A DNA stretch of 49,311 nucleotides from Sorangiineae bacterium NIC37A_2 (GTDB taxonomy: Bacteria > Myxococcota_A > Polyangia > Polyangiales > Polyangiaceae), in the NCBI GenBank assembly GCA_002085155.1, contig NASX01000012.1, positions 20,894 through 70,204 on the forward strand, read 5' to 3'. The position numbers and the translations under genes are program-made. The notes under the pieces are model-generated. The model had not been told where the DNA came from, did no database searches, and saw only the letters and a program-made list of their open reading frames with translations. Numbering within the stretch: the first letter of the stretch is position 1; the number at the start of each line of letters is the position of its first letter. Shown here in pieces: positions 1-26,078 of the stretch.

Positions 1-296
1 CGATCGAAGCCGAGACCGGGCGGAGCGCGGAAGCTTCGCTCAAAGACGCGCCATTCGGTCTGGCCCCGAGCGGCCACCGCGACGATCGCGCGAGGGGCGC
101 TCTCCTCAGCAGCCGGGGCCGGCTTGTCTTCCGTCGCGCTCCCGCCGCTGCCGAGGGTCGTGGCGACCTCGAAGGGCGTATAAGGGTGATCGTCGTTGCA
201 GGTGCAGCCTCCGATGTAGGTTGCACAGCCGAACATCGCGAGAAGGGCGAGGCCGCGGAGCGGTATGCGGTGATGTGGGGGCTTTCTGACGAGCAC
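1..296 (-). CDS. putative lipoprotein, 3' end outside window
   Basis: This reverse-strand frame stays open to the left edge, so the C-terminus is missing. A GTG at 296 gives a short basic start (MLVRKPPHHR), a hydrophobic stretch and a lipobox-like LAMFGC with the candidate lipidated Cys at residue 24. More Cys residues follow (YIGGCTC), then an Ala/Glu/Pro-rich segment. The signal peptide and lipobox support export and anchoring in the envelope. No family is recognised. The gene is divergent from the giant TPR gene, with about 220 bases between the starts. An overlapping 89-codon ORF in another frame (106-375) looks arginine-rich and spurious. Confidence 0.5.
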   Translation of the reverse strand, partial: MLVRKPPHHRIPLRGLALLAMFGCATYIGGCTCNDDHPYTPFEVATTLGSGGSATEDKPAPAAEESAPRAIVAVAARGQTEWRVFERSFRAPPGLGFD

Positions 297-519
297 GATA
301 GGGCGTGTAGCAGTGGTCCGGGGCGATCGGATCCCCGAGAGCGCGCTTTTTGAGCCTTCTGGCCTGCGACCGCATCGGGTTTTGCCGCGCGCGGGGGCCC
401 CGAGGCGAAATCCTCGAAATATATGGTTGTTTGCGCCTTTGTGCCCCTGATAGGCTCTCCGGTCCGGTTCGAGGGGTCGACTGAAGGATTCAACGGGCTC
501 GGGCTCGCGAGGCATAAGA
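297..519. other. divergent intergenic region
   Basis: This spacer separates the truncated lipoprotein gene and the giant TPR gene and must hold both promoters. A short AT-rich patch (about 415-432) is the only composition change. A weak sigma-70-like pair can be drawn (TTGTTT at 427, GATAGG at 449, 16-base spacer), but it is not convincing. A GAGG at 509-512 sits seven bases before the TPR start codon and is a good ribosome binding site. Confidence 0.4.
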
Positions 520-3500
520 ATGGACGCACACACGGTTCGCACCGCCCTTGGCGCATTGCAAGGAAACCCAGACTCAAACGAAGCATGGGATAGCCTGAAA
601 GGGGCTCTCTCAAGTACGGAGGGCGATCTGTCTCCGAGTGAGGCGGATGAGCTCTTGAGGTGGGCCGCCGCGCGACACAGGCTGCGCGGTGACGCGCGCG
701 TCGCTTACGAGCTGTTAGAACTCAGTGCGGGCCTTGGCTTGACGCCGGAAGCGCTCGCCGCGCTCCGAAAAGAGCAAGTCGCAATACTCGTGTCTGAGCT
801 CCTCGAGGCGCAAAAGGCTTTTGAGCTGAGTGAAAAAGCGGTCCTGGAAGCACCGGGCGACGCTGAGCTCGAGCGGCTGCGAGACGAGCTGTTCGACCGC
901 GTGCACAACTGGAAAGCGAACGCCGAAGGCTACATGGTCGAGGCGGATAGCGCCCCCGACGACGCTTACCAGAGCGCGATGTTGATGCGCGCGGCGGAGG
1001 CCGAGGTTTGTTTTTCGGAAGAGCCGAGCCTGCTTCGGGTCGAGGAGAACCTTGAACGGGCGATCCGCCTCGACTCGGCGAACCTGTTGGCGGCCCGTCT
1101 GCTCGAGGCCGTCTATCGCAAGAGCGCCCGTTACGACGAGGTCGTGCGAGTTCTCGAGCGCATCTCGGAGCGCTCTCCGGACCGCGGCGCGCGACTCGAG
1201 GCCTTTGTCCGCCTCGCGCATGTCTTCGCCACGAAGCTGAGCGATCCGGAGCGCGCTGCGGCGGCGTACGATCGGGTGCTCGAGCTCGATCCGACCCAGT
1301 CGGACGCGACCGCTTACGCGTCCGACTACTATTCGAATCATGAGCGCTGGGACGAGCTCGTGCGCGTCTATGAGCGCCCGCTGCGCGGACGTCAGCCCGA
1401 TCCGTCGTTCCTCGGCGAGATGCTCCAGGTGGCGCTCCTGCACTGGCGCAAGCGGAACTCTCCCGCGGACGCCGAGCCCTGGTTCGATCTGATCCGGCGC
1501 ACCGACCCGACGCACGAGATCATGCTCGGATTCTACCGCGAATATAAGGCGGGGCTCTCGGACGAAGCGGGCCTCGTCCACATCCTGCAGGCCGCCCAGC
1601 GCGCGCTCCCGCCTGGTGATGAGCGGAGCGCGGCGCTCGCCGAAGAGATCGCGCGCCTCACCCTGTCCCAGGCCGGCGCTCACAAGGCCATCGAAGAGTT
1701 CAAGGCGGCGCTCCGCGCCGATCCGAACAACCAGGGCGTGCGCGACGAGCTGAAGAAGCTCTACAAGCAGACCCAGGGCCACAACGCCCTTGTCGAGCTC
1801 CTACGCCAGGAGCTCGAGCGCACGGACGCCGACGACTACCAGAAGCGTCTCACGATCTTGCGCGAGATTGCCACCGTGTACCGTGAGTACATCAAGAGCG
1901 ATACCGCTCTGGTCGGTGTGCTGAACCAGATCGTCCAGCTCGACGGCAAGCTCGACGAGCATGACGTCGGCGAGGTCCGCGAGTTGGTTCATCTTCACGA
2001 GAAGCTGGGCCGCCCGCGGGAACTCCTCGTCAGCAAGAAGCTGCTCGCGGAGATCGTGCCGGATCGCGAGGAAAAGAAGGCCCTCTACAGGTCCATGGGC
2101 CGAGCCTGGCTCGACCAGTTCTCCCAGGTCCAGCACGCGATCGAGGCCTACGCAGCGCTCCACGAGCTCGATCCGCTCGACACGGAGGCCATCGAGCGCC
2201 TCGACGAGCTTTACCGGAAGCGTCGCTCCTGGAAGGAGCTCTATGAGCTGTACCGAGAGCAGCTCGGGCGGAAGGAAGGCCTGCAGAGGGTGCCGCTCCT
2301 CAAAGAGCTCGCTCAGCTGTCCGCCGAGCGTCTCGGCAACATCGAGGAAGCCCTCGAGCTCTACGGTCAGATCCTCGATCTTGATCCGACCCGCACCGAC
2401 GCCCTCCAGCGCATGGAAAAGTACGCGGAGCGGAGCAAGAACCTCCGGAGTCTCGCGGACGTTCTCGAGCGCCAAGCGCGCATCCTCCCCGAGGACGAGA
2501 CGCGTGTGCCAGTGCTCACGAAACTCGGCGGCGTCTACGAACAGCTCGAAGAGCCGGAGCTCGCGGTCCAGACCTGGCAGCGGGTTCTCGCGGCTCAGCC
2601 CGGCAACGTGCGCGCGATGCGTGTCCTGCGCGACACCTTCCTCAAAGGCAACCGCTTCGACGAACTCGAGCAGCTCTTCATGAGCCAAGGGGACGCGGAG
2701 ACGCTCGCCGAAGTTCTCAGCACGGCCGCCGACCGGGCCACCGATCCTGAGGTCCGCCTTGACTTGAGCAACCGCGCCGCGCGCGTCTACGAGCAGAGCC
2801 TCGGCCAGAGCGCCCGCGCTGTGCGCTCCTACGAGCGCATCCTCTCCATCCGTCCGGGTGACTCCTTTGCGATCGAACGACTACTGTCGATCTATGAGCA
2901 GGAGGAGAAGTGGGCGCGGATCCCGCCGCTCCTCGAGGCGCTCTCTGACTTGCGTCCGGAGCCCGAAGAGAAGCTCGAGATCTTGATGCGCCTGGTGCGC
3001 GTCCTCGGCGGGCAACTCGGTGATCGCAAGGGGGCTGCCCAGGCCGCTCGCAGGGCCTTCGAGGTTCTGCCGACTGATCCGCGCGCGCTCGACCTGCTCG
3101 ACGACGCCTGCCGCACCCTCGGCAACTGGGATGAACTTGTCCAAGCCTTCTCTCACCGCATTGCCACGCTCTCCCGTGCCACTGCGCCCGCGGCCCCCGC
3201 TGCGGTCGCGACCTCTGAGGTTCCGCCTCCCGAGGAGCCCTCGCGTCCCTCCGAGACCGGCCAAAAGCCGGCCAAGAAGCGCAGAGGCAAAGGCAAGAGC
3301 AAGGCCAAGGCCGAGCCGACGCCGAGTGTCCCGCCCGCTGACGAGGTCAAGCCCGCTGAGGAGAGCAAGTCGGTCGCCCCGGCTCCCCTCGACGAAGCCT
3401 CTGCTCAGGCCCGCCGTGAGCTCGTCTTGCGCCTGGCCCGCGTGCAAGGCGAGGAGCTCGGTCAGGTCGGCGGCGCCCTCGATGCTCTCCGAAGACTCGC

Positions 3501-6500
3501 GTCCGATTTCCCCGGCGATGATGAATTGATGACCCTGTTCGAGGGCCTGCTCCGTCGGGAGCGACGGCCGAACGACGAGCGCTGGCTCTACGCTCACAGG
3601 GCCAGCGTCACGAGCCCCGCGGGCCCCGCGTACGCCGCCTGGGCTGCCTTCGAGGAGAGTCAGGGGGAGATCGACAAGGCGCTCGAGCTCTACGAGCAGG
3701 CCTCGAAAGACGAGGAGAACGTCCCTGCTCTCGAGGCGGTGGTGCGCCTCGCGCTGCTCCAAGGGCAGCCGGAGCGGGCGGCGAAAGCTCTCGAACGACT
3801 CACGGAGTGCTTGGAGGGCGAGCGCCAGGCGCAAAAGGAGGCGGCGCTTGCGTCCCTGTACGCGAGCGCGCTCGGGCGTCCAGTGGACGCTCTCGAGCGA
3901 GCCGAGCGCGCGCGTGCCCTCGGCGCTGAGCGCGGTCAAGTCATCCTGGTCCTCAAGCGTCTCGTCGAGGAACCTGTGGTTCGCGCCGAGGCCGCTCGTA
4001 TTTTGAGCGAGCTCTACGAGGCGGGCGGCGACGCGCGTCAGGAAGCCGATGCGGTCCGGGCGATGCTCTCTGAGGCGGGCCCTGGAACTCCCGAGCGCGC
4101 GGAGGTCTACGATCGGTTGATATCGATTTATGAGCACAAGCTCCATGAGCCGAGCGGCGCGCTCAATGTGACCCTCGATGCTCTGCGCGAGATGCCGGAG
4201 CGGGAGGCTCTCTGGGATCAGGCGACGGCTCTCTCGGAGCGGGCAGGGCGTCCGACGGACCTGCTCGATGCGCTTCGAGAAGCTGTGAGGCGCGACCTGC
4301 CGACCGACGTGGCCATCGATCTGGCGCGCCGCGCGGCGGCGGTCTGTGAAGAAGTGCTGCAAGATCCGGCAGGCGCCGTCCCCTTCTACGAGAAGATCTT
4401 GGCCCTTCTGCCCGAGGACGACGTGGCCTGGCCCCGTCTTCGCGAGATCCTGACAGCGGGCGAGCGCTGGAACGAGCTCGAAGACCTGTGTGTGCGGGAA
4501 GCTCAGCGCACCCCCGATCCGCTCCGCAAGATCGAGCTGCGGAGCGAGGTCGCCCTTCTGGCTGAGGATATTCTCGGCGACGCGGGGCGAGCGGTCTCCT
4601 ATCACAAGGAGATCCTCGAGCTCGACGAGAACTACAAGCCTTCCCTCGAGTCCCTCGACCGACTGCTCGGACGTCTCGGCAAGAAACAAGAGCTGGCCGC
4701 GTTGCTCGAGCGACGGATCTCCATCGCCGACTCCTCGGAAGAGCCGGCCCTCCGAGTGCGCGCGGCGCGGCTCGCCGTCGAGCTCCATGAGCCCGAGCGC
4801 GCCATCGAGCACGTCGAGCAGGTCCTCACCGTGAACCCCGCGGATTACGAGGCGCGGGACGTGGCCGAGACCTTGCTCCAAATCGGCAAGGTGAAGCTCC
4901 GCGCCGCGAGCCTTCTCGAAGCGACCTATGAGGCTCGTGACGAGGTGCGCGACTTGGTGCGGGTGCTCGGAGTGCGAGCTGAGGCGCTGCGTCCGGCGTC
5001 GCCCTCCGAATCGACACCGGAGATCGAGGTCGAACGGCGCGATCTCCTGCGCCGCATCGCAACCCTCCGCGACGATCGGCTCCACGACGACGCGGGCTCC
5101 TTCGACGTGTTCGCGGAGCTGGTCCCCCTCGATCCAGAGGACTTCGATCTGCGCTCACGCCTGATCGATGCTGGGCGCCGCCTGGGCCGCAGTGAGCAGG
5201 TGGTCGAGGTTCTTGGACAAGCGGCGGAAGCTGCCTCCTCCGCCGAGCTCAAGGGCCAAATCCTCACCGAGGCCGCGCACGTTCAGGAACAGATCCTCGC
5301 CGACGTGCCCGGCGCGATGCAGACCTATCAGCGGATCGTGGCGATCGATGGAGCCGATACGGATCTCATCCTGTCGGCCTACCGCGCCATGGAGAAACAC
5401 CTGGTGCTTGACTCGCGCTATGAAGCGCTGGCGGAGAACCTCAAGGCACAGGTCGCTCTCGAGAGCGACTCGGTGGTGCGCGCCGAGCTCTACGGGCGCT
5501 TGGCTCATCTTTACGCCGAGACCTTGAACGAGCCTCAGGCGGCGACTTTGGCCTGGGAGGGGCGCCTCGAGGATATGCCGGATGATCCGGCCTCTTTGAT
5601 TGCTCTCTCCGAGCTCTACGATCAGGCGGGGCGCTACGAAGATCTGGCGTCGATCCTGCTCCGTCGCCGCGAAGCTGCTCTCCAAGATCGGGAGCGCCAA
5701 GCGCTCACGGCGCGCCTCGCTGAGGTCCAGGAGGTCAAGCTCGGCCAGCTTGAGCGTGCCATCGAATCCTACCAAACCCTGCTCGACGAGGCCGGCCCGA
5801 GCCCTGAAGTTCTCTCGGCTCTGGCGCGCCTGTTCCAGAAGACCGCTCGCTATGGCGATCTCGGTGACATCCTCAGCAAACAAGCGGAGGTCTTGCCGGA
5901 CCAGACGGCGCAGCTTGCAGCGCTCTACGCGCTCGGTCAGCTTCGCAGCACGGAGCTCGGAGATACCTCGGGTGCCGTCGACGCCCATCGTCAGGCCCTT
6001 GTGATCGACATGAACTACGGGCCGAGCCGAGAAGCTCTGCTGGCTCTGCTCGATGGTCCCGATGAGCCGACCCGCCTTGAGGTCGCCGAAATCTTGCAGC
6101 CGATCTTCGAGGCAGAAGGAAACTACGAGGGACAGCTGCGCCTTGCTGAGGTGCAGGCGAGCGCTTCGGACGATCCTCAGTACCGCGCCGAACGGCTCAA
6201 GCGGGCGTTTGAGATCTGTGAAGACCTGCTCGGTGACAAGGAGCGAGCTTTCAAGCTGGCGCTCTCGGGTCTGAGTTCAGCCCTCGAGAGCTCGGAGCTC
6301 GATAGCTACCTGAAGACCATCGATCGCTTGGCGCTGGTCACCGACCGGCGCGCAGAACAAGCAGCCGCCTTGAGCCAAATCGTCAAGGACATCTTCGACG
6401 GCGATCTTCAACTCGAGACCTATCACCGCATCGGCGCCATCTACCGAGACGACCTCGGGGATCTGCCGCGCGCGATCGCCGCCTATCAGAGCGCCCTTGA

Positions 6501-9500
6501 GGCGAATCCCGACGATCCTGCCTCCCTAGAGGCCCTCGATCACCTGCTGCTCGAGCTCGGGAAGAACGAAGAGCTCGTCGACATCTTGGATCGTCGCCGC
6601 GCGCTCGCCCTCTCGGACGAGGAACAAAAGGAGCTCCTCTACCGGAAGGCTCGGCTCCTCGCGGGAGCGTTGAACCAGCCCGACAAGGCCATCGAAGCCT
6701 TTGAATCGCTGGTCGACATCGCCCTCGAGCCTGAAGCTGTTTCCGCGCTGTCGTCTCTGTACACTTCCGAAGAGCGTTTTGATGACCTCGCCGCTCTCAT
6801 TGAGCGCCAGGTGGAACAAGCTGGTCCCCAGGCGGCGCCGCACCACGTCGAGCTCGCTCGAGTGCTCATTGATCGCAAGAGCGACCTCGACCGGGGCCTC
6901 GACGAGCTGGATAACGCGCTGATCAAAGACCCCTCACAGTCGAGCGCGATCCAGCTGCTCGAAGAAATGGCCGATCGCGACATCGAACCGATGTACAAAG
7001 CGCGCATTGGCAGCATCCTCGAGCGCGTCTACCTAGCTCGGACCGACTACGATAAGCTCCTTCGAGCCCTCTCGCTCCAGCTCACAGCGAGCGACGCACC
7101 CACGGACAGGCGCGAGTTCGCGACGCGCATGGCGCAGATCTACGAGGAGCAGAAGGAAGACTACGCCTCTGCGCTCAAGATGAACGCCATGGTGCTCGCT
7201 CTCGATCCCGAGGACGAGTTGACCGTTTCGGAGATGGAGCGTCTCGCGCGGGTGCTCGGGAGTCCCTTGGAGCTCGCGTCCCTGTTCCGAGCCCAGGTCG
7301 TGACCACCGGCGTCGACGGAGAAGCTTCGGCGCGCCTCGCCCGTCGCGCTGGTCAGATCTACCTCGAGCAGGGGGATCCGGCGCAGGCGATTCCGCTGTT
7401 CCGCCAGGCTTTTGAGGTGATCCCGGAAGACCATGAGCTCTTCATTTGGCTCGACCGCGCTTACGAGAGCGCAGGGACCATCGAAGATCGGATCGCGCTC
7501 TATCGGGCCGCCCTCGAACAGCGCTACGAGCCTCAGGAGCGCGTCGGTCTGTTCTCACGCATCGCAGATCTCGCGGAGAAGGCCGGAGACGAGCCGCAAG
7601 CCATCGAAGCCCTCTCGGAGATCCTGGCTCTTGACGAGGAGCACGAACCGGCGTTCCGGGCGCTCGAGCGCCTCTATCGCAAGCGCTCCGAATGGCAGGA
7701 GCTCGTCACGCTGTACGAGCGCTGGCTTGAGGCGGTGCCGGGTCCGAGGTCGCGGGCCGAGCGACTCTCCTTGGCCCATGTGCTCGAGCGAGAGCTGAAG
7801 GACTCCGAGCGCGCTCTCGATCAGCTGGAGGTGATCGTACAGGAGGAGCCCAGCGAGGCTCTGGCGCTCGCCGAAATCGAGGCGTTCCGCGCCCGTCCGG
7901 AGCTCAGGGCTCGGGTGGTCGAGATCTTGGTCCCGATCTACGAGACGACGGACAACTGGCAGGGCTTGCTCAGGCTCCTCGAGGATCGTTTGGAGCTGGC
8001 TCACGACGAGAGCGAAAAGGCGAGCCTCTACGCGGAGGCGGCGCTGCTCACGGAGCAGCGCGCCGGCGATCTCGGCCTCTCCATGGACCTCTTCGCGCGG
8101 GCCTTGACCCTCGCACCGGAGCGGGACGAGCTCCGGGAAGAGCTCGAGCGCCTCGCGGCGCGCACAGAGGACTGGGCGAAGCTGGCCGAGACCTATCGCG
8201 AGCTCCTCGAGACGCGGCCTGATCTGGATCACAGGAGCGACGTAGTGGCGCGTCTAGCCTTCTTGCTCGACAAGAAGCTCGACGATCCGCGGGCGGCGCT
8301 GGTGCTCTACCTGGAGCGCCTCGAAGCGGATCCGACCGACTTCGACAGCATCTCGGTCGTGATTCGGCTCTCGACGCTGCTCGGAGATTGGGTCGCCCTC
8401 GAGAAGGGTCTCTCGTACAAAGCAGAGGTCACTTACGAGCCGGCGGCGCGCCGTTCGATCCTCCTTGAGCTCGGTGAGCTGCGTCATCTGAGCCTCGAGG
8501 ACTCTGCCCGCGCCATGGAAGCTTATGAGCGAGCGCTCGCCGAAGACGAGCGCGACGCGGAGATCTTGGATCGCCTGATCGAGCTCTATCAGGGCGGTGA
8601 AGACCCGAATCGTCTCGTCGAGCTGTACCTGCTCCGCGCCGACGCCGACGGTACCGAGCCGGACGAAGCTTATTCGTTCTTGCTGAGCGCCGCTGATCTC
8701 TTCGAGCAACGGCTCGAGGAGCGCGACCGCGCCATCGAATGTCTGACCCGGGCGCTCGTGGTCCGGCCCCTGGATCCGACGGCGACCGCCGAGCTGGCGC
8801 GCCTCTATGAGAAGGAAGAGCGCTTCAGCGACCTCCTGGATCTCTTGAAGGAGAGCGTGGGAGCAGCGGAGACGGAGGAAGCGCGCGCCGAGATTCGGCA
8901 CCGGATCGCTCGCGTGCTGATCGACAAACTCAGCGCTCCCGAAGAGGCCCTCGAGACCTGGGCAGCGATCCTCGCGACCAATCCGGCAGACGAGCGCGCT
9001 CGCGAGGGCATTTTTGCCCTGGCCGAAGGGGAGGAACATTTCCAGGTTCCGGCGGCAGAGATCTTGGTGCCCGCGCTCACGGCCATCTCCGCCAAGGCCG
9101 ACCTCGTGCGCGCTCTTCGCTATCGTCTGAGCGCGGAGGAGGACAGCCTCACGCGTCTCGGGACCCTCGGGCAGATCGCAAACCTGGAGGTCGAGCTGGG
9201 ACACTTGGACGCGGCCCTTCTGGCCCTGCTCCAAGGGCTCAGGGGTGAGCCGTCCGCCTTCGAGGTGCACGACGAGGCCCGCGCTCTGAGCCGCAAGATC
9301 TCGAAGCCTGAGCTCTATGCCCAGGCCCTCGCGGAGATGATCGAGGAGGAGACCGATCCTTCGGTGCAGAGGGTTCTCTGCATTCGCGCAGCCGAGGTCC
9401 AGAAGCAGGACATCGGCGACGTGAAGGCCGCTGCGGCGGCCTATGAGCTCGCTTGCGAGCGCGTTGGCGACGACGAAGAACTCCTGGTTGCCCTCGACGG

Positions 9501-11937
9501 TCTCTACCTAGAGCTCAAGGAACCCGAGCAGCTCGTCAGTGTGCTCGAACGGCGCCTCGCGCTCGCGGTCGATCCGGGTGAGCAAGCGAAGCTCTTGGTG
9601 CGCATCGGCTCCCTTGAGCTGTCGGAGCTCAAGCGTCCCGAAGCCGCTCTCGCGGCCGTCAAGCGCGCCTTGGAATACGATGTCACAAGCGAAGAGGCGG
9701 TCGGTCTCCTCAAAGAGCTCATCGATCGGGACGAGCTGTTCGACGAGGTGTTCGACGTGCTCGAGGAGACCTATCGAACGAGGCGTCAGGGCGCGGCCCT
9801 CGCTGACCTGCACCGTCTGCGACTCGGTCGCGCAGAGGACACCGCGGCACGTATCGATGGACGTCGCGCTCTTGCGCACGTGCTCGAGGACGAATGCCAA
9901 GATCCTCGCGCTGCCCAGGACATCCTGGCTGAAGGTGTGCTCGAGGATCCGACGAACCTCGGGCTGGTCGACGAAGTCGAGCGACTCTTGCCCCTCACCG
10001 GCGCCTACCAGGCAGGCGCTGAGATCTTGGTGCGCGCGAGTGAGCTCAAGAGCGCAGCAGATTCGGCCAGCGAGCTTTGCCTCCGGGCGGCCGAGTGGTT
10101 CGAGCGGGGCGGCGATCTCGAGCGTCAGCTCGGAGCATTGCGCTCGGCGGCCGCGTTGGCTCCGGAGAGTGACGAGATCTTGGCGCGGATTGAGGCTCTG
10201 GAAGAGCAGCTTGGTCAGGAGCAGGCCCTGCTCGGGACCCTCGACAAACGCGCCGCTCTTGCCCTCGATGATCACGAGCGGATCGAGTTCTTGCGCAAGC
10301 GCGCGGGGCTCGCGGAGAAGCTCGGCCAGGCGAAGGAAGCAGAGGTCTCGCTGCGCGCGATCCTGGAGCTCGCTTACCAGGATGTCGGAGCCCTGTCGGC
10401 CCTGACCGAGCTTCGCCGAGCGGCAGGCGATCACGAAGAGGAGTTCGTCCTGCTCCTCCGGCGGGCCGAGGCCGAGCCGGACGCTTCGATGGCTTGGGCG
10501 CTCCGACGCGAAGCGGCGGAGCTCGCTCGAGATCGCCTGGGCAAAGCGGAGGAGGCTGCGCGCCTGTTCGAGGGCCTCGTCGAAGAGAGCTCTGACGACG
10601 AGTCCGTGGTAGACGATCTCCTGAAAGCCTACGAACTCGCGGGAGAGTGGGATAACTGGGTATCCGCCGTCGAGCGTCGCTTGGATCGGACGAGCGACGA
10701 GCGGAGGCGTGCGGCGCTCCGCCTGGAGCTGGCTCGGGTCCACCTCTCGCGTCGCAACGATCCGGCTACGGCGGCTGAGCTGCTCGAGAGTGTCCTCGAG
10801 TTTGACCAGCGCTTCGAGGGCGCAAGCGCTGAGCTTGTCGCGATCTACGAAAAGGCCGGAGAGCATGAGCGGCTGAGCGACCTCTTGGCTCGCGAGGTCG
10901 GCAGAGCTCTCGAAGACGGTCAGACCCCGGAGGCCGCGAGCCTTGGCCGTCGGCGTGCGGCCCTTGTGGAGACCGAGCTCGAGGATCTGCCGCTCGCTCG
11001 CAGCATCTGGCGCGAGATCAAGGCCATCGATCCGGGCCCCGAGGTATACTCGGCGCTGGTCCGTCTGGACCTTGCGCTCGGCGAGCGTGAGAGCGCGGCG
11101 GTGGAGCTCGAAGAGTGGGCTGGGTCGCTGAGCGGCCGAGAGCAAGCGGAGAAGCGCCGGGAGCTCGCGGCGCTTTACCGTGAACTCGGCCAGTCGGACG
11201 CGATGCTCAGGAACCTCGAGTCGGCGCTCGCGCTCGATCCGAGTGACCGGCAGCTGCGCGCGGAGCTCAAGCAGAGCTACGACGCTCTCGACCGCGTCGC
11301 CGACGTGGCGCGCATGACCGCGGAAGAAGCCGATCTCGAGACCAAGCCAGCGGATCGGGTCCGTTTGCTCCGAGAGGCAGCGGCTTTGCTCCGGCAGCGC
11401 ACAGGTGATCTGGCCGGTGCGGCGACGATGCTCGAAAGAGCGGTCGAGCACGCCGGGGACGACAGAGCGCTGCTCCTTGAGTTGTGCGATCTTTATACCG
11501 AGTCCGGCCGTGGCCACGACGCGGTCCAGGTTCTCACGCGCATCGTCGACAGCTACGGGGGCAAGCGCGTCAAAGAGCTGGCCGACGTGCATCGTCGCCT
11601 CGCCAAGGCTCTAGTCGCGCTCGGGGAGCCGGCCCGAGCTATCGAGGAGCTGGACAAGGCTTTCCGCATCGAACCGGGCAATGTCGGCGTCTTGCACCAG
11701 CTCGGAGAGCTGGCCATCCAGAGCGGCGACGCCAAGAAGGCTCAGCAGATGTATCGCGCCCTCCTCTTGCAGAAGCTCGAGGCAGGTTCACCCATCACCA
11801 AAGCTGAGGTGTTCGTGCGGCTCGGCCAGACCCACGTCATGCTCGGTGAGAACCCGAAGGCGAAGCAGATGTTCGAGCGCGCCCTGCAGGCGGATCCGAA
11901 CCTCGAACTCGCTAAGGCCGAACTTCAGAAATTGTGA
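520..11937 (+). CDS. giant tetratricopeptide-repeat protein, 3805 residues
   Basis: One uninterrupted frame of 3805 codons starts at an ATG preceded by GAGG with a seven-base spacer. Almost the whole protein is helical TPR/HAT-like repeat. Loop motifs of the type LELDPT, DLDPTRTD, ALDPSDRQ or IEPGNVG recur, and helices carry the A--AY--L and W-ELV--YE patterns. Between residues ~2200 and ~2900 and again ~3140-3790, the loop motifs come every ~70-75 residues, so the unit looks like a pair of TPRs. A Pro/Ala/Lys-rich linker with a KKRRGKGKSKAK cluster at about residues 887-965 interrupts the array. There is no signal peptide, membrane segment or catalytic domain, so a cytoplasmic scaffold is the best inference. 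The partner is unknown. The stop codon is one base from the next start. Confidence 0.93.
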   Translation: MDAHTVRTALGALQGNPDSNEAWDSLKGALSSTEGDLSPSEADELLRWAAARHRLRGDARVAYELLELSAGLGLTPEALAALRKEQVAILVSELLEAQKAFELSEKAVLEAPGDAELERLRDELFDRVHNWKANAEGYMVEADSAPDDAYQSAMLMRAAEAEVCFSEEPSLLRVEENLERAIRLDSANLLAARLLEAVYRKSARYDEVVRVLERISERSPDRGARLEAFVRLAHVFATKLSDPERAAAAYDRVLELDPTQSDATAYASDYYSNHERWDELVRVYERPLRGRQPDPSFLGEMLQVALLHWRKRNSPADAEPWFDLIRRTDPTHEIMLGFYREYKAGLSDEAGLVHILQAAQRALPPGDERSAALAEEIARLTLSQAGAHKAIEEFKAALRADPNNQGVRDELKKLYKQTQGHNALVELLRQELERTDADDYQKRLTILREIATVYREYIKSDTALVGVLNQIVQLDGKLDEHDVGEVRELVHLHEKLGRPRELLVSKKLLAEIVPDREEKKALYRSMGRAWLDQFSQVQHAIEAYAALHELDPLDTEAIERLDELYRKRRSWKELYELYREQLGRKEGLQRVPLLKELAQLSAERLGNIEEALELYGQILDLDPTRTDALQRMEKYAERSKNLRSLADVLERQARILPEDETRVPVLTKLGGVYEQLEEPELAVQTWQRVLAAQPGNVRAMRVLRDTFLKGNRFDELEQLFMSQGDAETLAEVLSTAADRATDPEVRLDLSNRAARVYEQSLGQSARAVRSYERILSIRPGDSFAIERLLSIYEQEEKWARIPPLLEALSDLRPEPEEKLEILMRLVRVLGGQLGDRKGAAQAARRAFEVLPTDPRALDLLDDACRTLGNWDELVQAFSHRIATLSRATAPAAPAAVATSEVPPPEEPSRPSETGQKPAKKRRGKGKSKAKAEPTPSVPPADEVKPAEESKSVAPAPLDEASAQARRELVLRLARVQGEELGQVGGALDALRRLASDFPGDDELMTLFEGLLRRERRPNDERWLYAHRASVTSPAGPAYAAWAAFEESQGEIDKALELYEQASKDEENVPALEAVVRLALLQGQPERAAKALERLTECLEGERQAQKEAALASLYASALGRPVDALERAERARALGAERGQVILVLKRLVEEPVVRAEAARILSELYEAGGDARQEADAVRAMLSEAGPGTPERAEVYDRLISIYEHKLHEPSGALNVTLDALREMPEREALWDQATALSERAGRPTDLLDALREAVRRDLPTDVAIDLARRAAAVCEEVLQDPAGAVPFYEKILALLPEDDVAWPRLREILTAGERWNELEDLCVREAQRTPDPLRKIELRSEVALLAEDILGDAGRAVSYHKEILELDENYKPSLESLDRLLGRLGKKQELAALLERRISIADSSEEPALRVRAARLAVELHEPERAIEHVEQVLTVNPADYEARDVAETLLQIGKVKLRAASLLEATYEARDEVRDLVRVLGVRAEALRPASPSESTPEIEVERRDLLRRIATLRDDRLHDDAGSFDVFAELVPLDPEDFDLRSRLIDAGRRLGRSEQVVEVLGQAAEAASSAELKGQILTEAAHVQEQILADVPGAMQTYQRIVAIDGADTDLILSAYRAMEKHLVLDSRYEALAENLKAQVALESDSVVRAELYGRLAHLYAETLNEPQAATLAWEGRLEDMPDDPASLIALSELYDQAGRYEDLASILLRRREAALQDRERQALTARLAEVQEVKLGQLERAIESYQTLLDEAGPSPEVLSALARLFQKTARYGDLGDILSKQAEVLPDQTAQLAALYALGQLRSTELGDTSGAVDAHRQALVIDMNYGPSREALLALLDGPDEPTRLEVAEILQPIFEAEGNYEGQLRLAEVQASASDDPQYRAERLKRAFEICEDLLGDKERAFKLALSGLSSALESSELDSYLKTIDRLALVTDRRAEQAAALSQIVKDIFDGDLQLETYHRIGAIYRDDLGDLPRAIAAYQSALEANPDDPASLEALDHLLLELGKNEELVDILDRRRALALSDEEQKELLYRKARLLAGALNQPDKAIEAFESLVDIALEPEAVSALSSLYTSEERFDDLAALIERQVEQAGPQAAPHHVELARVLIDRKSDLDRGLDELDNALIKDPSQSSAIQLLEEMADRDIEPMYKARIGSILERVYLARTDYDKLLRALSLQLTASDAPTDRREFATRMAQIYEEQKEDYASALKMNAMVLALDPEDELTVSEMERLARVLGSPLELASLFRAQVVTTGVDGEASARLARRAGQIYLEQGDPAQAIPLFRQAFEVIPEDHELFIWLDRAYESAGTIEDRIALYRAALEQRYEPQERVGLFSRIADLAEKAGDEPQAIEALSEILALDEEHEPAFRALERLYRKRSEWQELVTLYERWLEAVPGPRSRAERLSLAHVLERELKDSERALDQLEVIVQEEPSEALALAEIEAFRARPELRARVVEILVPIYETTDNWQGLLRLLEDRLELAHDESEKASLYAEAALLTEQRAGDLGLSMDLFARALTLAPERDELREELERLAARTEDWAKLAETYRELLETRPDLDHRSDVVARLAFLLDKKLDDPRAALVLYLERLEADPTDFDSISVVIRLSTLLGDWVALEKGLSYKAEVTYEPAARRSILLELGELRHLSLEDSARAMEAYERALAEDERDAEILDRLIELYQGGEDPNRLVELYLLRADADGTEPDEAYSFLLSAADLFEQRLEERDRAIECLTRALVVRPLDPTATAELARLYEKEERFSDLLDLLKESVGAAETEEARAEIRHRIARVLIDKLSAPEEALETWAAILATNPADERAREGIFALAEGEEHFQVPAAEILVPALTAISAKADLVRALRYRLSAEEDSLTRLGTLGQIANLEVELGHLDAALLALLQGLRGEPSAFEVHDEARALSRKISKPELYAQALAEMIEEETDPSVQRVLCIRAAEVQKQDIGDVKAAAAAYELACERVGDDEELLVALDGLYLELKEPEQLVSVLERRLALAVDPGEQAKLLVRIGSLELSELKRPEAALAAVKRALEYDVTSEEAVGLLKELIDRDELFDEVFDVLEETYRTRRQGAALADLHRLRLGRAEDTAARIDGRRALAHVLEDECQDPRAAQDILAEGVLEDPTNLGLVDEVERLLPLTGAYQAGAEILVRASELKSAADSASELCLRAAEWFERGGDLERQLGALRSAAALAPESDEILARIEALEEQLGQEQALLGTLDKRAALALDDHERIEFLRKRAGLAEKLGQAKEAEVSLRAILELAYQDVGALSALTELRRAAGDHEEEFVLLLRRAEAEPDASMAWALRREAAELARDRLGKAEEAARLFEGLVEESSDDESVVDDLLKAYELAGEWDNWVSAVERRLDRTSDERRRAALRLELARVHLSRRNDPATAAELLESVLEFDQRFEGASAELVAIYEKAGEHERLSDLLAREVGRALEDGQTPEAASLGRRRAALVETELEDLPLARSIWREIKAIDPGPEVYSALVRLDLALGERESAAVELEEWAGSLSGREQAEKRRELAALYRELGQSDAMLRNLESALALDPSDRQLRAELKQSYDALDRVADVARMTAEEADLETKPADRVRLLREAAALLRQRTGDLAGAATMLERAVEHAGDDRALLLELCDLYTESGRGHDAVQVLTRIVDSYGGKRVKELADVHRRLAKALVALGEPARAIEELDKAFRIEPGNVGVLHQLGELAIQSGDAKKAQQMYRALLLQKLEAGSPITKAEVFVRLGQTHVMLGENPKAKQMFERALQADPNLELAKAELQKL

Positions 11938-11938: not shown

Positions 11939-12835
11939 ATGACCATGAGCCAGCGCGTTGAAGTCTGGATCGACGCTCTTCGCGCTACGGGCTCGCCTGT
12001 CGTCAGCGTTTTCGACCGGGGTCTCCTTTATGGAGACTCCGTTTTCGAAACGCTCCGCACCTACGGCGGGCGTATCTTCGAGCTTGAGGCGCACCTCGAG
12101 CGTTTGAAGAGCTCGGCGGAGCTCGTGGGGATTCCGTGGCTCCCGGAGTTCGAGAACCTTGGGCCCGAGACGAGGGCACAAGTGGAGAGCGCCGGCTTTC
12201 CAGAAGCCTACGTGCGCCTCATGGTCACCCGCGGGGAAGGGCCGCTGGGGCTCCTACCAGATCCCGCGCTCCGCCCGCGGCGCATCACCTTGATCAGCGA
12301 GCTCTCCCTCCCGGGCGAGGAGTTCTACGAGCGAGGCGCGAAGGTGAGCTCCTTTGTCGCTGAGCCGCGGTTCGGCCTGAAGGAGCTGGCAGGTGCTAAA
12401 ATGGGCAACTACGTCCTTGGGATCCGGGCGCTCCGAGCGGCGCGCCAGCAGGGGGCAGATGAGGCGATTTTCGTCGATCCAAATGGGGTGGTGAGTGAGG
12501 GGGCCACCTCGAATGTCTTCTTCGTGCGCGGCAGGACGCTCCTGACGCCTCCAGAGGAAGGGATCCTCGCGGGCATCACTCGCGCGGTTGTCCTGGACCT
12601 AGCGGAGCGAGCGGGCCTCGAGGTCCGCTGGGAAGCTCCGAACATCGATGAGCTCGGAGCGGCCGACGAGGTCTTCCTCACCTCGAGCCTGCGGGGGATC
12701 GTGCCGGTCGTGGAGGTCGATGGACGGACTGTGAGTTCGGGAGTGCCAGGGCAATGGACCCGGAAGCTGCGGGTTTTGCTGGAAGAGCGCGCTCTTCAGA
12801 GAAGCTTGAACGGAACAAGAGCACGAGACCTGTGA
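11939..12835 (+). CDS. class IV PLP aminotransferase (BCAT / aminodeoxychorismate lyase type)
   Basis: The 298-residue protein has the fold-type IV PLP signature. The candidate Schiff-base Lys is K154 in GAKMGNYVLG. It is followed by the GADEAIFVD segment, the E187 block (VSEGATSNVFF) and the cofactor-binding segment GILAGITRAVV. Such enzymes include branched-chain aminotransferase, D-amino-acid transaminase and 4-amino-4-deoxychorismate lyase, and sequence inspection alone does not separate these. Length fits all three. The start is the ATG one base after the TPR gene stop; a second ATG lies two codons later. The frame is also open upstream, but that part is a shadow of the TPR gene. Tight spacing implies co-transcription with the giant gene. 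Its last 158 bases are antisense to the transporter gene. Confidence 0.88.
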   Translation: MTMSQRVEVWIDALRATGSPVVSVFDRGLLYGDSVFETLRTYGGRIFELEAHLERLKSSAELVGIPWLPEFENLGPETRAQVESAGFPEAYVRLMVTRGEGPLGLLPDPALRPRRITLISELSLPGEEFYERGAKVSSFVAEPRFGLKELAGAKMGNYVLGIRALRAARQQGADEAIFVDPNGVVSEGATSNVFFVRGRTLLTPPEEGILAGITRAVVLDLAERAGLEVRWEAPNIDELGAADEVFLTSSLRGIVPVVEVDGRTVSSGVPGQWTRKLRVLLEERALQRSLNGTRARDL

Positions 12836-14170: not shown

Positions 14171-16423
14171 TCAGTCTCGGGAGAGGGGGCGGACGAAGGT
14201 GAGCTCACCGTCGAGGATGCGCCGGGCCGCTTCGACCTTCGGGTTGTTGCGAACGGCGCGCATGGCCTGTTCGTAGCGCTCCCGACGGGCCTTTTCTTTC
14301 TGGTCACGGGTCGAGAGCCAGGAAGGGTCAATCTTCTGGGAGACGATCTGGATCTCGACCTCCCGCCCGAGAGCGCTCCGGGCTGCCTCGCGCACAAGCT
14401 CGAGGAAGCTCTTTTCACCGACCTGCTCGGCGAAAAGAAACTCACGGTCGAAGACGAACTTGAGAGAGTTCGACGGCGTCCCGCTCGGCAGGGGGATCAG
14501 CTGATCGAAGAGGGCAGCCGCGTGAGCGTCACGGGCGCGGAGGGCGTCCGAGATGAGGAACTCGTCGCTCGCTTCGCCTTCCCCCAGGTCACTCCAGGGC
14601 TCTTCGCTTTCTGGCAGAGCAGGTTCAGCCGCTCGGGCGGCCGGCGATGCAGGCTCCTCGGAGGCCGCGGCATGGGCAGGCGCGGGAGCAGCGGCGGGCG
14701 CGGGAGCAGCGGCAGGCGCGGGAGCAGCGGCAGGCGCGGGAGCAGCGGCGGGCGCGGGTGAAGGAGCAGACGGCTCGTCTGGGGGGGCCACGACAGGCGC
14801 GCTGAGGGCCGGAGTTTCGGCTCGTGGCGCTTGCTGGGGACTTTGGACTGGGGCGCTGGGGGGCGAGGCAGGAGGCGCAGCTTCGGTGGGGGAAATCTCC
14901 GGAAAAGCGCTCGGCTCGAGGCTCGAGGAGGTGACCGGTACGGAGAGCTCCGGCGCGGGGGCCGCGGAAACCGGCGAGGCGTAGGCGAGGGGCTCGGGGA
15001 CTGTCTCCGGCTGCGGAGGCGCGAGGCGCTCGGGGGAGGCCGGGCTCGCGAGGGGACTCGAGGCGCCCGGCGAGGGAGAGCTTGCGGGGCTCGGAGAGCC
15101 CGGGTCAGGTTCGACGTCGTCGGAGGCGTCGGGCTCTTTCCGCCGGGGCGTCGCCGTAGCTGCGGGAGACTCACTGCGCTGAGCGGTCTCTCGCGCTGGG
15201 GCGCGCATGGGCGGCGCGTTGCGCCTCGGTTCACCTGTGCGAGGCGCGGGCGCTGCGCCCGTGAGACGGCGCTCGAGATGCCCGAGTCGGTGCAAGAGCT
15301 CATCGACCGAGAGAAGGTCCGGCCGGAGCGCGAGTCGCACACACTGCATTTCGAGGCCGGCGCGAGGGTCACTGGACCGGACGACGTCGTCGAAGTCCTT
15401 CGAGAAGGCTTGGTGGAGGCGGACGAGATCGGTCTCGGAGCGAGTAGAGGCGAGCCCTGTGAGGCGCTCGAGAGCGTCCATCGGACGATCGACCAAGGTC
15501 CCATTTGAGCCTGCGACCTTGAGCACCACCAGGTCCCGGAAGAGCGAGAGCAGGTCCCGCGCGACGTGGACGAGATCGTAGCCTTGCTCCGCGAGCTCTC
15601 CGATGTGCTCGAGGGCTTGGGCAGGCTGTTTGTCGAGGATCGCTGTGGCGATCTGCTCGAGGGCGACGGTGCTGGCGACCCCGAGCACCCGGGCCACGTC
15701 TTTTCCGTGCAGCTCTGCGCCCCCGAACGCGATCACCTGGTCGAGCAGGCTCATGGCGTCGCGCATGCTGCCGGCGGCTTGGCGCGCGAGGATCGAAATC
15801 GCCTCTTCGTCCGCTTGGATCGACTCCTGGCTGAGGACGTAGCGCAAGCGGTCCGCGATCACCTTTGCGCCGATCATTTTGAAGTCGAAGCGCTGGACCC
15901 GGCTCAAAATGGTGATGGGGACTTTGTGAACTTCGGTCGTCGCGAAGATGAACTTCACGTGGGCCGGGGGTTCCTCGAGGGTCTTCAGGAACGCGTTCCA
16001 GGCGGCCTGAGAGAGCATGTGGACTTCGTCGACGATGACGATCTTGAAGCGATCGCGGGTCGGCCTGTAGGGGAGCGAGTCCTGGAGCCGGCGCACTTCA
16101 TCGACGCCGTTGTAAGAAGCGCCATCGATTTCCTGGACGTCGAGATCGGTCCCTTTGGCGATTTCGACGCAAGCAGGGCAGGTGAGGCAGGGATCGACGG
16201 TCGGGCCTGTAGCGCTTCCGTCTGGGCCCATGCAGTTGAGCGCCTTGGCGAGGATGCGGGCGCTCGTCGTCTTGCCGACCCCGCGCACCCCGGTGAAGAG
16301 GAACGCGTGTGCGACCCGATTCTGCGCGATAGCGTTGCCGAGCGTCTGCGCGACGTGGTCTTGGCCGACCAGATCGCGAAAGCTCATGGGCCGCCATTTG
16401 CGCGCCAGTACGACGTAGCTCAT
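14171..16423 (-). CDS. dnaX: DNA polymerase III subunit gamma/tau
   Basis: This 750-residue AAA+ clamp-loader ATPase assembles beta clamps and couples polymerase cores at the fork. It shows Walker A (GVRGVGKTT, residues 45-53), a four-Cys zinc site (C64, C79, C82, C85), Walker B (VIVDEVH, 129-135) and the sensor/arginine-finger segment ILSRVQRFDF, where the common SRC reads SRV. Residues ~375-610 form a long Pro/Ala/Ser linker containing a PAPAAA repeat. The C-terminal domain (~610-750) resembles the tau region. No A-rich slippery sequence for a programmed gamma frameshift is visible. The start ATG follows AGGCGGG. It begins the reverse-strand dnaX-recR-transporter unit. Confidence 0.96.
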   Translation of the reverse strand: MSYVVLARKWRPMSFRDLVGQDHVAQTLGNAIAQNRVAHAFLFTGVRGVGKTTSARILAKALNCMGPDGSATGPTVDPCLTCPACVEIAKGTDLDVQEIDGASYNGVDEVRRLQDSLPYRPTRDRFKIVIVDEVHMLSQAAWNAFLKTLEEPPAHVKFIFATTEVHKVPITILSRVQRFDFKMIGAKVIADRLRYVLSQESIQADEEAISILARQAAGSMRDAMSLLDQVIAFGGAELHGKDVARVLGVASTVALEQIATAILDKQPAQALEHIGELAEQGYDLVHVARDLLSLFRDLVVLKVAGSNGTLVDRPMDALERLTGLASTRSETDLVRLHQAFSKDFDDVVRSSDPRAGLEMQCVRLALRPDLLSVDELLHRLGHLERRLTGAAPAPRTGEPRRNAPPMRAPARETAQRSESPAATATPRRKEPDASDDVEPDPGSPSPASSPSPGASSPLASPASPERLAPPQPETVPEPLAYASPVSAAPAPELSVPVTSSSLEPSAFPEISPTEAAPPASPPSAPVQSPQQAPRAETPALSAPVVAPPDEPSAPSPAPAAAPAPAAAPAPAAAPAPAAAPAPAHAAASEEPASPAARAAEPALPESEEPWSDLGEGEASDEFLISDALRARDAHAAALFDQLIPLPSGTPSNSLKFVFDREFLFAEQVGEKSFLELVREAARSALGREVEIQIVSQKIDPSWLSTRDQKEKARRERYEQAMRAVRNNPKVEAARRILDGELTFVRPLSRD
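14680..14751. repeat. 18-bp tandem repeat inside dnaX linker
   Basis: Four head-to-tail copies of an 18-base unit (GCGCGGGAGCAGCGGCGG on the plus strand, with one alternating base) lie here. On the minus strand they encode the hexapeptide PAPAAA of the tau linker. The units differ only at the penultimate base, so the array is nearly homogeneous and is a likely site of slippage length variation. Confidence 0.9.
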
Positions 16424-16501
16424 CTGCCCGCCTGGGCTAGCAGAAAGCCCCCCGGGACTCCATGGTGACGGCCCTGTGGCCGGGGCTCTTTGGGCGTTGT
16501 A

Positions 16502-16515
16502 GGGTCCATGGACCC
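16502..16515. promoter_or_regulatory. 14-bp perfect palindrome before the signalling operon
   Basis: GGGTCCATGGACCC is a perfect palindrome ending two bases before the chosen start codon of the lipoprotein gene at 16518. It lies in the 94-base divergent spacer from dnaX. A dimeric repressor site is possible, or the palindrome could occlude the start codon in mRNA. It does not match BirA or BioR operators known to me. Confidence 0.35.
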
Positions 16516-16517
16516 CT

Positions 16518-17318
16518 ATGGCGGCGCTCAGGTTCCGGGGCGCACACGCGCTCCGCTGTCACTTTGCTTGGACCATGTTCGGGTGCGGCCTTGTTGTGGC
16601 GCCTTTCGGTTGCGGCGGCTCCGAGCGCCCCCCGGAGCTCCCCACACAGCCCTCCCCGCTCGAAGAGCGGAAGGAGGCGGCGGCTCCCCGAGAAAGTTCT
16701 GCTGAGCCCGACGCGGGGTGGACCCTTGTCGCCGAGCGGCGCGGCGCAGCTTCGGTGCAGTTCGTGGAGCCGACCTTCTCGCTGCATCTCGATGGTCCGA
16801 AGCGCTGGGTCCAAAGGCAGCCGGGCAGGGAAGGGGGGGTGATGTTGGATGACCATCGCCCGCGCCCTCTCAGCAAAGAGGCGACGACGATCGAGCTCTC
16901 CAAGCTCATTCCGGAAGATCTCGAGCTCGCCCCAGGACAGCATCAGATCGTTGTCTGCGAAGAGAGCGATGGGGCGCGCGTGTGTTCGGGGCGGGCATTT
17001 TCCTGGACCGTGGAGGGGCGGGCCAGCGAAGTGCCCTTCCTGGCGCCGGATTGCCTCCTTTGGGAGCCGGGCGGGACCTACTTTGCAGCAGACGCCATCC
17101 CATTTTTGGCGCTCGGAGCCTCCAGGGAGGACGGCGCGCCCGCGATCTCCTACCGAATCCATCATGGGGACAAGCGCGCCACGGTGGAGGCAGCATTGAA
17201 CGAGCGGCTCGCGGTCTCGCTTCCGGTCGGCGACACACGTGTCGAGCTGCTCTGCGGTCCAAGCTCGACTCTCGCCGGGACTCGCACGATTACGATCAAC
17301 CCCGGTTCCCAGCCATGA
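16518..17318 (+). CDS. putative lipoprotein heading the histidine kinase-bioA operon
   Basis: The 266-residue protein begins with a basic segment and a hydrophobic stretch ending in the lipobox-like APFGC, then a Pro/Glu-rich linker, which suggests an envelope-anchored lipoprotein. The remainder is mixed sheet-like sequence with a few Cys residues (VVCEESDGARVC, APDCLLW) and no family I recognise. The ATG at 16518 gives the best signal peptide. An internal ATG at 16575 would leave it too short and uncharged. No clear Shine-Dalgarno is seen. Its TGA overlaps the kinase ATG by four bases, so the two are translationally coupled; a sensory accessory role for the kinase is an inference from that. 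Confidence 0.72.
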   Translation: MAALRFRGAHALRCHFAWTMFGCGLVVAPFGCGGSERPPELPTQPSPLEERKEAAAPRESSAEPDAGWTLVAERRGAASVQFVEPTFSLHLDGPKRWVQRQPGREGGVMLDDHRPRPLSKEATTIELSKLIPEDLELAPGQHQIVVCEESDGARVCSGRAFSWTVEGRASEVPFLAPDCLLWEPGGTYFAADAIPFLALGASREDGAPAISYRIHHGDKRATVEAALNERLAVSLPVGDTRVELLCGPSSTLAGTRTITINPGSQP

Positions 17319-18883: not shown

Positions 18884-20202
18884 AACGACAAGAGCTCATC
18901 GAGATCGATAAGCGCCACGTTTGGCACCCTTACACTCCCATGCAGGAGTACATCGAGCGGGGCGAGCCGCTCGTGATCGCCGAAGCGCGCGGAGCCGTGC
19001 TCCGAGACGTCGATGGACGTAGCTACTACGACGGGAACGCGAGCTGGTGGACGGCCCTCCTCGGCCACAACCATCCGCGCCTCATCGAAGCGCTCCACGA
19101 CCAGTCGCGGAAGATGTGCCACGTCGCGTTCGGAGGCATGACCCATGAGCCCGCGGTCCTCCTCGCCGAAAAGCTCGCGGCGCGCGCGCCCGGGGAAATG
19201 CCGCACGTATTTTTCAGCGACAACGGGTCCACCGCGGTCGAAGCCGCGCTCAAGATGAGCCTCCAGTTTCACAAGCAGAACGGCGCTCCCGAGCGCACTC
19301 GCTTTGTCGCCCTCGAGCACGCCTTCCACGGTGAGACCCTGGGCGTGACCTCCCTTGGAGGCGTCGATGCCTTTCGGCAGGCCTTCGACGGCAGTCTGCC
19401 CCTCACTGTCTATCACGCGCCTTCCCCCGGCGCGCACGGACAAACCGTCGAGAGCGCCGTCCAGTCTCTCAGCGGGCTCCTCGAGCGCCACGGCAGTTCG
19501 ATCGCAGCTATGGTCGTGGAACCTCTGATTCAGGGCGCGGGGGGGATGCTCATGCATCCTCCCTCTTACCTCTCGGAGGTGCGACGGCTGACCCGAGAGT
19601 ATGGCGTGCACCTGATCGTTGATGAGGTGTTCACCGGCTATGGCCGCACGGGGACCTTCTGGGCCAGCGAACAGGCAGGCATCGAACCGGACATCCTCTG
19701 CACAGCGAAAGGGCTCAGCGGCGGCGTGCTTCCGTTTGCAGCGACGTTGACGCGGACCGAGATCTTCGAGGGCTTTTTCGGCGATCCATCGCGCGCGTTC
19801 TATTACGGGCACACGTTTGCCGGAAATCCCCTCGGCGCTAGGGTAGCTCTCGAGGTGCTCACGGTGTACGAAGAAGAAGCGGTGCTCGAAGGGATCCCGG
19901 AGCGCTCAAGGCGCCTCCGCGGGCTCATTGAGCGCGTGGCGGCGGCGCATCCCGGGGCGCGACGGCCGCGGTCGCTCGGCATGTGTGGGGCTGTCGAACT
20001 GGGAGACGGAGCCGACTATTTGAATCGGCTCGGCTGGCGAGTGTTCGACGAAGCGAAGAAGCGGGGCGCTTACCTGAGACCGCTCGGCAATGTTGTCTAC
20101 CTGGCGCCGCCGCTCAACATTCCGCTTTCGGACTTGGACGCGCTGATCGCGATCGTCGAAGAGAGCATTGATATCGTCATGAGGGAATATGGCAAAGCGT
20201 GA
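18880..20202 (+). CDS. bioA: adenosylmethionine-8-amino-7-oxononanoate aminotransferase
   Basis: BioA makes 7,8-diaminopelargonate from 7-keto-8-aminopelargonate using S-adenosylmethionine and PLP, the antepenultimate step of biotin synthesis. The 440-residue protein carries the diagnostic WHPYTPMQ (15-22), the cofactor-binding DNGSTAVEAALKM block, D248 in LIVDEVFTGYG and the Schiff-base Lys K277 in TAKGLSGG. The GTG start overlaps the kinase stop by four bases. No other bio gene is in the window, so it is separated from the rest of the pathway. Its 3' end overlaps the ferredoxin gene by 14 bases. Confidence 0.95.
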   Translation: MKRQELIEIDKRHVWHPYTPMQEYIERGEPLVIAEARGAVLRDVDGRSYYDGNASWWTALLGHNHPRLIEALHDQSRKMCHVAFGGMTHEPAVLLAEKLAARAPGEMPHVFFSDNGSTAVEAALKMSLQFHKQNGAPERTRFVALEHAFHGETLGVTSLGGVDAFRQAFDGSLPLTVYHAPSPGAHGQTVESAVQSLSGLLERHGSSIAAMVVEPLIQGAGGMLMHPPSYLSEVRRLTREYGVHLIVDEVFTGYGRTGTFWASEQAGIEPDILCTAKGLSGGVLPFAATLTRTEIFEGFFGDPSRAFYYGHTFAGNPLGARVALEVLTVYEEEAVLEGIPERSRRLRGLIERVAAAHPGARRPRSLGMCGAVELGDGADYLNRLGWRVFDEAKKRGAYLRPLGNVVYLAPPLNIPLSDLDALIAIVEESIDIVMREYGKA

Positions 20203-21918: not shown

Positions 21919-21937
21919 CCCTCCTTCGTCCGTACTC

Positions 21938-22279: not shown

Positions 22280-22362
22280 CAAGCCCTGAAACGACCGCCA
22301 CCTGGGCCCTTTAATAGGCAAGCGGCAAAGGCGGGCGGTCTTTTTCAGGGGTGGCGGGGCGC

Positions 22363-22821: not shown

Positions 22822-22879
22822 AGGCGACCCAATCTACAACGCGGATCGACTCTGACAAGGGGAGGCGCTCTCACATTCC

Positions 22880-24381: not shown

Positions 24382-24385
24382 GAGC

Positions 24386-26068: not shown

Positions 26069-26078
26069 AGGACTCGGA

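Follow-up and report, generated by a model that had tools for sequence, protein, structure and literature searches.

In PMC3169522, GltI (AgmK) of Myxococcus xanthus (MXAN_4863) is described as a 4132-amino acid TPR protein lacking a signal or membrane span and encoded in the glt cluster. A 2026 review presents GltI as a large intracellular scaffold that together with GltG links the motor protein AglQ to MreB (PMC13104615), and another review notes that the threading of GltG and GltI through the peptidoglycan has not yet been investigated (PMC12288465). As to distribution, homologs of AgmK are reported in two myxobacteria only, at >30% identity and size within 30% among CheR-TPR-containing genomes (PMC3447774); a wider spread is reported for the gene group with gltI (PMC3169522). 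A search of openly licensed PMC literature returned GltI/AgmK but no account of giant TPR families other than in glt, and of such giant TPR proteins GltI is the only one with a studied role in the literature found.

Here we analyze a gene of comparable size in a 49,311-nucleotide stretch (the window) of contig NASX01000012.1 from Sorangiineae bacterium NIC37A_2. The gene is the first large ORF of the window and is carried by contig C89, one of the 150 that make up a 5.0 Mb genome (Table 1). What makes it of interest is less its size than the division of its relatives into two families and their near-fixed length.

Table 1. Features of the giant TPR gene and its flanks, in window coordinates
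Feature	Coordinates	Strand	Basis
Giant TPR gene (family A; predicted alpha-solenoid), 3805 aa, about 50 units of 72 residues	520..11937	+	ORF, Pfam, self-comparison, unit model; single full-length ORF in most fetched orthologs
N-terminal conserved core (N-core), residues 385-880	1672..3159	+	family profile/alignment
Disordered basic Pro/Ala/Lys linker, residues 887-954, lineage-specific insertion	3178..3381	+	AlphaFold pLDDT <50; alignment
Extra helix, residues 1834-1844, long unit	6019..6051	+	AlphaFold helix H145-155 of model 1690-2880; step 91
Extra helix, residues 2141-2151, long unit	6940..6972	+	AlphaFold helix H452-462 of model 1690-2880; step 90
Extra helix, residues 2447-2456, long unit	7858..7887	+	AlphaFold helix H758-767 of model 1690-2880; step 88
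Extra helix, residues 2825-2837, long unit	8992..9030	+	AlphaFold helix H1136-1148 of model 1690-2880; step 90
C-terminal conserved core (C-core), residues 3300-3805, the protein end in family A	10417..11934	+	family profile/alignment
Class IV aminotransferase	11945..12835	+	PF01063 1.8e-56; few bases 3′ of giant gene
Divergent predicted lipoprotein gene, 5′ end	1..542	-	continues outside window, contig C89 19408-21435; L002:5409-7436

Repeat architecture

The giant gene is read without interruption from the ATG at 520 to the stop at 11937. Pfam matches above cut-off were confined to TPR families and ARM_TT21_5th, which models the repeats of a TPR protein; TPR_1 matched at 5.3e-38 and TPR_14 at 1.3e-37 with 18 stretches, which places the product among TPR proteins. 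No enzyme domain was found above the Pfam cut-off, and no hydrophobic signal or membrane stretch was detected in the 3805 residues (Kyte-Doolittle, 19-residue mean, maximum 1.4; N terminus -0.26). The original prediction, made from the letters of the DNA, of a 3805-residue TPR array without signal or enzyme domain was thus upheld. Rfam and tRNA scans returned a tRNA-Pro alone.

The protein was compared with itself using BLOSUM62 over lags 1-420. Lag 72 scored highest (z 13.4 against 50 shuffles), followed by lags 17, 375, and 34, with lags 38 and 55 also present, so that the period near 72 residues is dominant, as had been proposed. Across 24 segments of 300 residues, lag 72 was among the top five in 19 and the top lag in 15; lag 71 was the top lag in three others (starts 451, 2251, and 3001), and neither lag was among the top five in the segments starting at 901 and 3451. 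Lag 72 was also the best lag from 10 upwards in all 30 orthologs tested. The unit consists of two hairpins of 34 + 38 residues, about 72 together, and occurs in about 50 copies, in agreement with the two TPRs per unit that were claimed at the outset. When the domain cut-off of a unit model was set at E ≤ 10, 50 copies were found, and 47 when it was tightened to E ≤ 0.001; these counts are partly circular, the model having been trained on the giant protein itself.

A near-constant step of 70-75 residues, expected from the first inspection, was observed for 34 of the 46 steps between units; eight measured 82-92 residues, a second level of organization that had been missed. These long steps, of about 72 + 17 residues, interrupt the near-constant step, and the family-mean lags of 89, 161, 233, 305, and 377 each equal a multiple of 72 with 17 added. 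Between residues 1546 and 3079 a long step recurs every three to five units, while upstream the spacing is irregular; the 82-residue step near residue 1464 apparently accommodates a loop, not a helix. The repeat of 217 bases that had been described applies to the reading frame but not to the DNA: Tandem Repeats Finder and a repeat search of the giant gene gave short matches only, a tandem repeat at the DNA level was rejected on these results, and the duplications are regarded as old because no long DNA-level repeat is present.

Predicted structure

AlphaFold models were obtained for residues 1-1180 (pLDDT 84.7) and 1690-2880 (pLDDT 87.6). In both, four helices per unit are predicted, arranged as hairpins throughout save at the linker, so that a TPR-solenoid fold is predicted for these two segments. 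All four long units within model 1690-2880 hold a fifth helix (Table 1). With pTM values of 0.36 and 0.39, the two models are confident about the local fold but give no prediction of the overall shape. A regular TPR superhelix has about eight repeats and a rise of 6-7 nm per turn; if the giant protein were to coil in the same manner, its length would come to an estimated 80-90 nm or so.

The pLDDT of model 1-1180 falls below 50 only at residues 887-902 and 904-954, within a basic segment rich in Pro, Ala, and Lys. The original prediction had placed a single basic linker near residues 887-965 and had let it split the array. The linker is real, with predicted disorder at 887-954, but it does not split the array: 22 of the 33 aligned family members have little or none of it while their array continues unbroken, and 11 retain it. 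A domain boundary at this point was therefore rejected; judged by the alignment, the linker is an insertion in one lineage and not a boundary between halves.

Two families of near-fixed length

Length was measured between the N-core and the C-core of the fetched proteins. By core-to-core length and tail they fall into two sets, termed family A, in which the chain ends at the C-core, and family B, which has an extra tail. In family A, 2337-2436 residues separate the cores in 44 of 46 distinct proteins and the tail measures -1 to 5 residues, the two exceptions in length being L116 (2116) and L056 (2205). The protein of the window (P0001), with an interval of 2419 residues including the linker and a tail of 0, belongs to family A. 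In family B, 28 of 29 proteins extend 559-572 residues (about 565) beyond the C-core, and the cores are 1842-1876 residues apart in 23 of 29, the other six having 1899-2065. Family B thus has the same 72-residue unit, homologous N- and C-cores, and a near-fixed unit number, but about 500 residues (seven units) fewer than family A between the cores and about 565 added after the C-core. In the length count, L046 and L047 are repeats of L010 and L006, L087 has a partial C-core match only, and the early end of its contig led to L007 being typed as B; G027, G061, G102, and G120, which have short open frames, lie outside the length counts.

Members of the 33-protein alignment are 28-43% identical to the protein of the window. 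Conservation in the family is strongest at about residues 400-550 and 3650-3750, which are candidate docking sites. From about residue 475 on, the N-core is also present in those family B members in which its start is missing. Stretches of RALLLQKL and ITKAEVF sit in the last part of the C-core, and this RALLLQKL/ITKA region near the C terminus is typical of family A and not of B. Unit-sized changes in the aligned array were seen in L056, which loses about 134 and 68 residues, and in L064, which gains 185; several other aligned members carry smaller insertions of 15-43 residues.

A tree built from both cores (44 A and 28 B proteins; L007, L012, L046, L047, L069, L072, L075, and L087 left out) placed all B members in one clade, whereas monophyly of A depends on the root. 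Each family is represented inside as well as outside the class of the window's genome, and at least 20 genomes carry the two. On these sequence comparisons, the giant TPR proteins of Myxococcota include two ancient sister families, A and B. The genome of the window has a family B gene of its own (L003:3304-13818, - strand, contig C63, 3492 aa), which lies next to a TPR lipoprotein gene and to a GltG-like gene whose product has an AgmX/PglI C-terminal domain. Giant TPR ORFs of 2620-4096 aa (L072-L076) were also noted in genomes that carry both A and B; they fit neither family well, their N-core match being weak or absent, and may represent a third family.

The near-fixed length may reflect selection on length or the loss of the similarity needed for slippage. 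Passive freezing of the unit number, in which the repeats have become too old and too diverged for slippage and unequal exchange and with which any function would be compatible, is an explanation to which we give slightly less than even weight. Consistent with it, no long repeat similarity exists at the DNA level, the units differ strongly in sequence, and family B, with 23 of 29 members in the narrow range given above, is almost as constant as A. Some arrays have nevertheless gained or lost roughly one to a few units (L056, L064, and L116), which indicates that a change of unit number is possible but rare. The near-constant unit number offers a natural test of whether the length of a solenoid is functional.

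Distribution in Myxococcota

A protein search of the genome collection yielded ten relatives with 40-42% identity in the best segment, their titles naming Polyangiaceae, Myxococcales, Sorangium, or Proteobacteria. Seven of the ten, counted from the conserved start, are unbroken ORFs of 3778-3796 aa; L010, complete as well, has its start called farther upstream, and L007 is truncated by a contig end. A profile of the N-core, which recognizes families A and B alike, matched, at E ≤ 1e-20, 146 of the 188 genomes that were sampled from the phylum. At E ≤ 1e-75 it matched at least 93 of 188, all 39 genomes of the window's class included, a count made by hand with at most eight candidate places scored per genome. 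Among the matches listed, most open frames measure 3.3-4.3 kaa (genes mostly of 10-13 kb). With strong relatives in about half of the sampled Myxococcota, among which the unit number barely varies where it was measured, the giant TPR protein is a phylum-wide type and not a curiosity. The description of such a scaffold as unusual in the original prediction was accordingly not sustained, GltI/AgmK being moreover a published precedent.

A C-terminal profile of 206 residues gave no match at E ≤ 1e-30 in eight of the 39 genomes of the class (16 candidate places each), and family A may for this reason be dispensable in some lineages; two of those eight genomes later yielded a diverged family A gene.

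Broken reading frames were also seen. An in-frame stop in the family A gene of a metagenome assembly (L012:6665-7640) cuts off the first approximately 143 residues and, since intact relatives exist, is ascribed to error or decay. The family A frame is broken on one contig in G027 (contig C189, ~14831-24861; 2895 + 1070 aa, with the cores apart) and in G102 (contig C1, ~1119300-1129500; 828 + 150 aa), breaks ascribed to assembly error or decay. In G061 and G120 the two cores lie on different contigs, and L069 is truncated by a contig end. Homologs that are split as a rule were rejected: most fetched orthologs are single full-length ORFs, with L012, G027, G102, G061, and G120 as exceptions. An assembly artifact as the origin of the giant ORF was likewise rejected, given the nearly equal length in other assemblies.

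Gene neighborhoods

Neighbors within 4 kb were counted at 47 family A and 29 family B loci using our own ORF caller, not annotation; contig ends truncate some of the flanks, and related loci (L004/L008 and L010/L012 share >90% identity) do not count as independent. At B loci, a TPR lipoprotein gene lies immediately upstream in 24 of 29, and genes for a GltG-like FHA protein and a GltF-like small protein lie within 4 kb in 18 and 10 of 29, respectively. Two GltG-like genes were scanned and matched NF033760 at 3.3e-99 and 3.1e-59; their scores of 333 and 201 bits are below the cut-off of 650 bits, hence GltG-like and not GltG. The label GltF-like reflects only size, a signal-like start, and position in the gene row. 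Because the GltG-like and TPR lipoprotein neighbors resemble the setting of GltI, family B is assigned by gene context as the putative GltI-type family.

None of the 47 A loci, the window's included, has a GltG-like, GltF-like, or B-type TPR lipoprotein gene within 4 kb (some of these flanks being cut by contig ends); five have a different TPR lipoprotein gene at -1. The most frequent neighbor of family A is a class IV aminotransferase gene, found downstream in 19 of 47 loci including that of the window, within 30 bases in 12 of the 19, and on the other strand in L063. In the window, the giant gene and the aminotransferase gene are probably on the same transcript. The aminotransferase had 22 NCBIfam matches, none reaching its cut-off; from its sequence, branched-chain transaminase, D-amino-acid transaminase, and aminodeoxychorismate lyase are candidate identities.

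Genes for MlaE, a PlsC-type acyltransferase, DUF374, or phosphatidylserine decarboxylase lie within 4 kb of 14 of 47 A loci and 0 of 29 B loci; when DUF374, presumably kin of the acyltransferases, is set aside, 12 of 47 A loci have such phospholipid-type neighbors. The +1 place is taken by MlaE in five A loci, DUF374 in five, and phosphatidylserine decarboxylase in four, and by none of them at the 29 B loci. The phospholipid-type neighbors occur in few clades, perhaps through three to four events, and differ from clade to clade. Both kinds of neighbor, aminotransferase and phospholipid-type, are present at two A loci and neither at 16 of 47 (including some contig-end cuts); the window's own locus has the aminotransferase only.

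An MlaE-type permease gene and an ABC ATPase gene are directly 3′ of the giant gene in L004 (21375-23740) and at the equivalent places in L005, L008, L009, and L011, and in four of these five loci a PlsC-type acyltransferase gene is within 4 kb. On the 5′ side in the window, the start called for the divergent lipoprotein gene makes it overlap the giant gene; the true start is probably farther downstream. Its product has a Cys-rich lipobox-like start followed by a conserved PYTPF stretch, as well as Asp-rich motifs (identified by eye), and no Pfam match; a homolog lies within 4 kb of 10 of 47 A loci, the window's included. Farther along the window, at 25289-30724, a row of genes encodes a DUF4159 protein, a protein whose GATase1-like and VWA matches are sub-threshold, and a HEAT-repeat protein.

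Proposed function of family A

The family A protein would be a TPR solenoid built wholly of helices, with about 50 four-helix units (about 100 hairpins), residing in the cytoplasm, where so long a scaffold would hold several partners at fixed positions. By analogy with family B and GltI, it would form the spine of a parallel assembly associated with the inner membrane; a weak hint of envelope phospholipid handling comes from some of the neighboring genes. We favor this reading, giving it about an even chance; its cytoplasmic location, scaffold action, and envelope link are all inferred.

A cytosolic housekeeping scaffold tied to the aminotransferase or to no neighbor, with gene order produced by chance operon drift, appears improbable to us. 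It would account for an aminotransferase without obvious membrane link being the commonest neighbor (19 of 47, 12 within 30 bases), for neighbors that vary by clade, and for the 16 loci with neither kind. It is less easily reconciled with MlaE, DUF374, and phosphatidylserine decarboxylase genes at +1 in different lineages of A and at no B locus.

An extended form of the favored spine reading, which we offer as speculation and hold to be very doubtful, would make family A the fixed-length spine of an undescribed Myxococcota machine parallel to Glt, linking inner-membrane phospholipid synthesis or transport (MlaE, acyltransferases, and phosphatidylserine decarboxylase) with a track or ruler in the cytoplasm; regular bends or docking sites would then be set by the extra helices, which return every three to five units in mid-protein.

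Comparison with known systems

Foldseek searches with both models returned, as the closest solved chains, members of the IFT-A, Ski, and Ctr9/Paf1 complexes (IFT139/TTC21, Ski3, and Ctr9). These are long TPR scaffolds of eukaryotes, but the likeness is one of fold type only, with 10-18% identity, TM-scores mostly of 0.1-0.2, rmsd of tens of angstroms, and matches that in most cases cover no more than about a third of the length. Against shorter superhelices, VIA Z values were 17.0 for LGN/Pins (304 residues, rmsd 16.6), 16.1 for O-GlcNAc transferase (OGT; 357 residues, rmsd 21.5), and 14.2 for consensus CTPR (270 residues, rmsd 14.9), middling values of a kind common among repeat proteins; profile matches to CTPR and OGT chains were also found. 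The canonical TPR is a single 34-residue repeat, as in LGN, OGT, and CTPR, whereas the giant protein has a 34 + 38 double unit with a recurrent extra helix. For the predicted models, the structural comparison, over the families listed, indicates the general TPR-solenoid fold only.

The giant protein resembles GltI/AgmK in being a TPR-only protein of the same size class without signal peptide or membrane span, the latter judged by hydropathy for the giant protein and taken from PMC3169522 for GltI. Family A might on this basis be another copy of GltI/AgmK that acts in Agl/Glt-type motility or a Glt-like machine, and the five A loci with a TPR lipoprotein gene immediately upstream would fit; we nevertheless think this unlikely. 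GltG-like or GltF-like genes are often found near B and never within 4 kb of the 47 A loci, and A and B separate in the tree and differ in C terminus and unit number. A GltJ search at 1e-60 gave no match anywhere in the 188 genomes, a result that does not show absence. The gltI gene lies in the glt cluster (PMC3169522), where it adjoins gltJ, whereas family A genes lack GltG- and GltF-like neighbors over the flanks surveyed. One scaffold design has seemingly been used for two assemblies, by family B with Glt-like neighbors and by family A without them.
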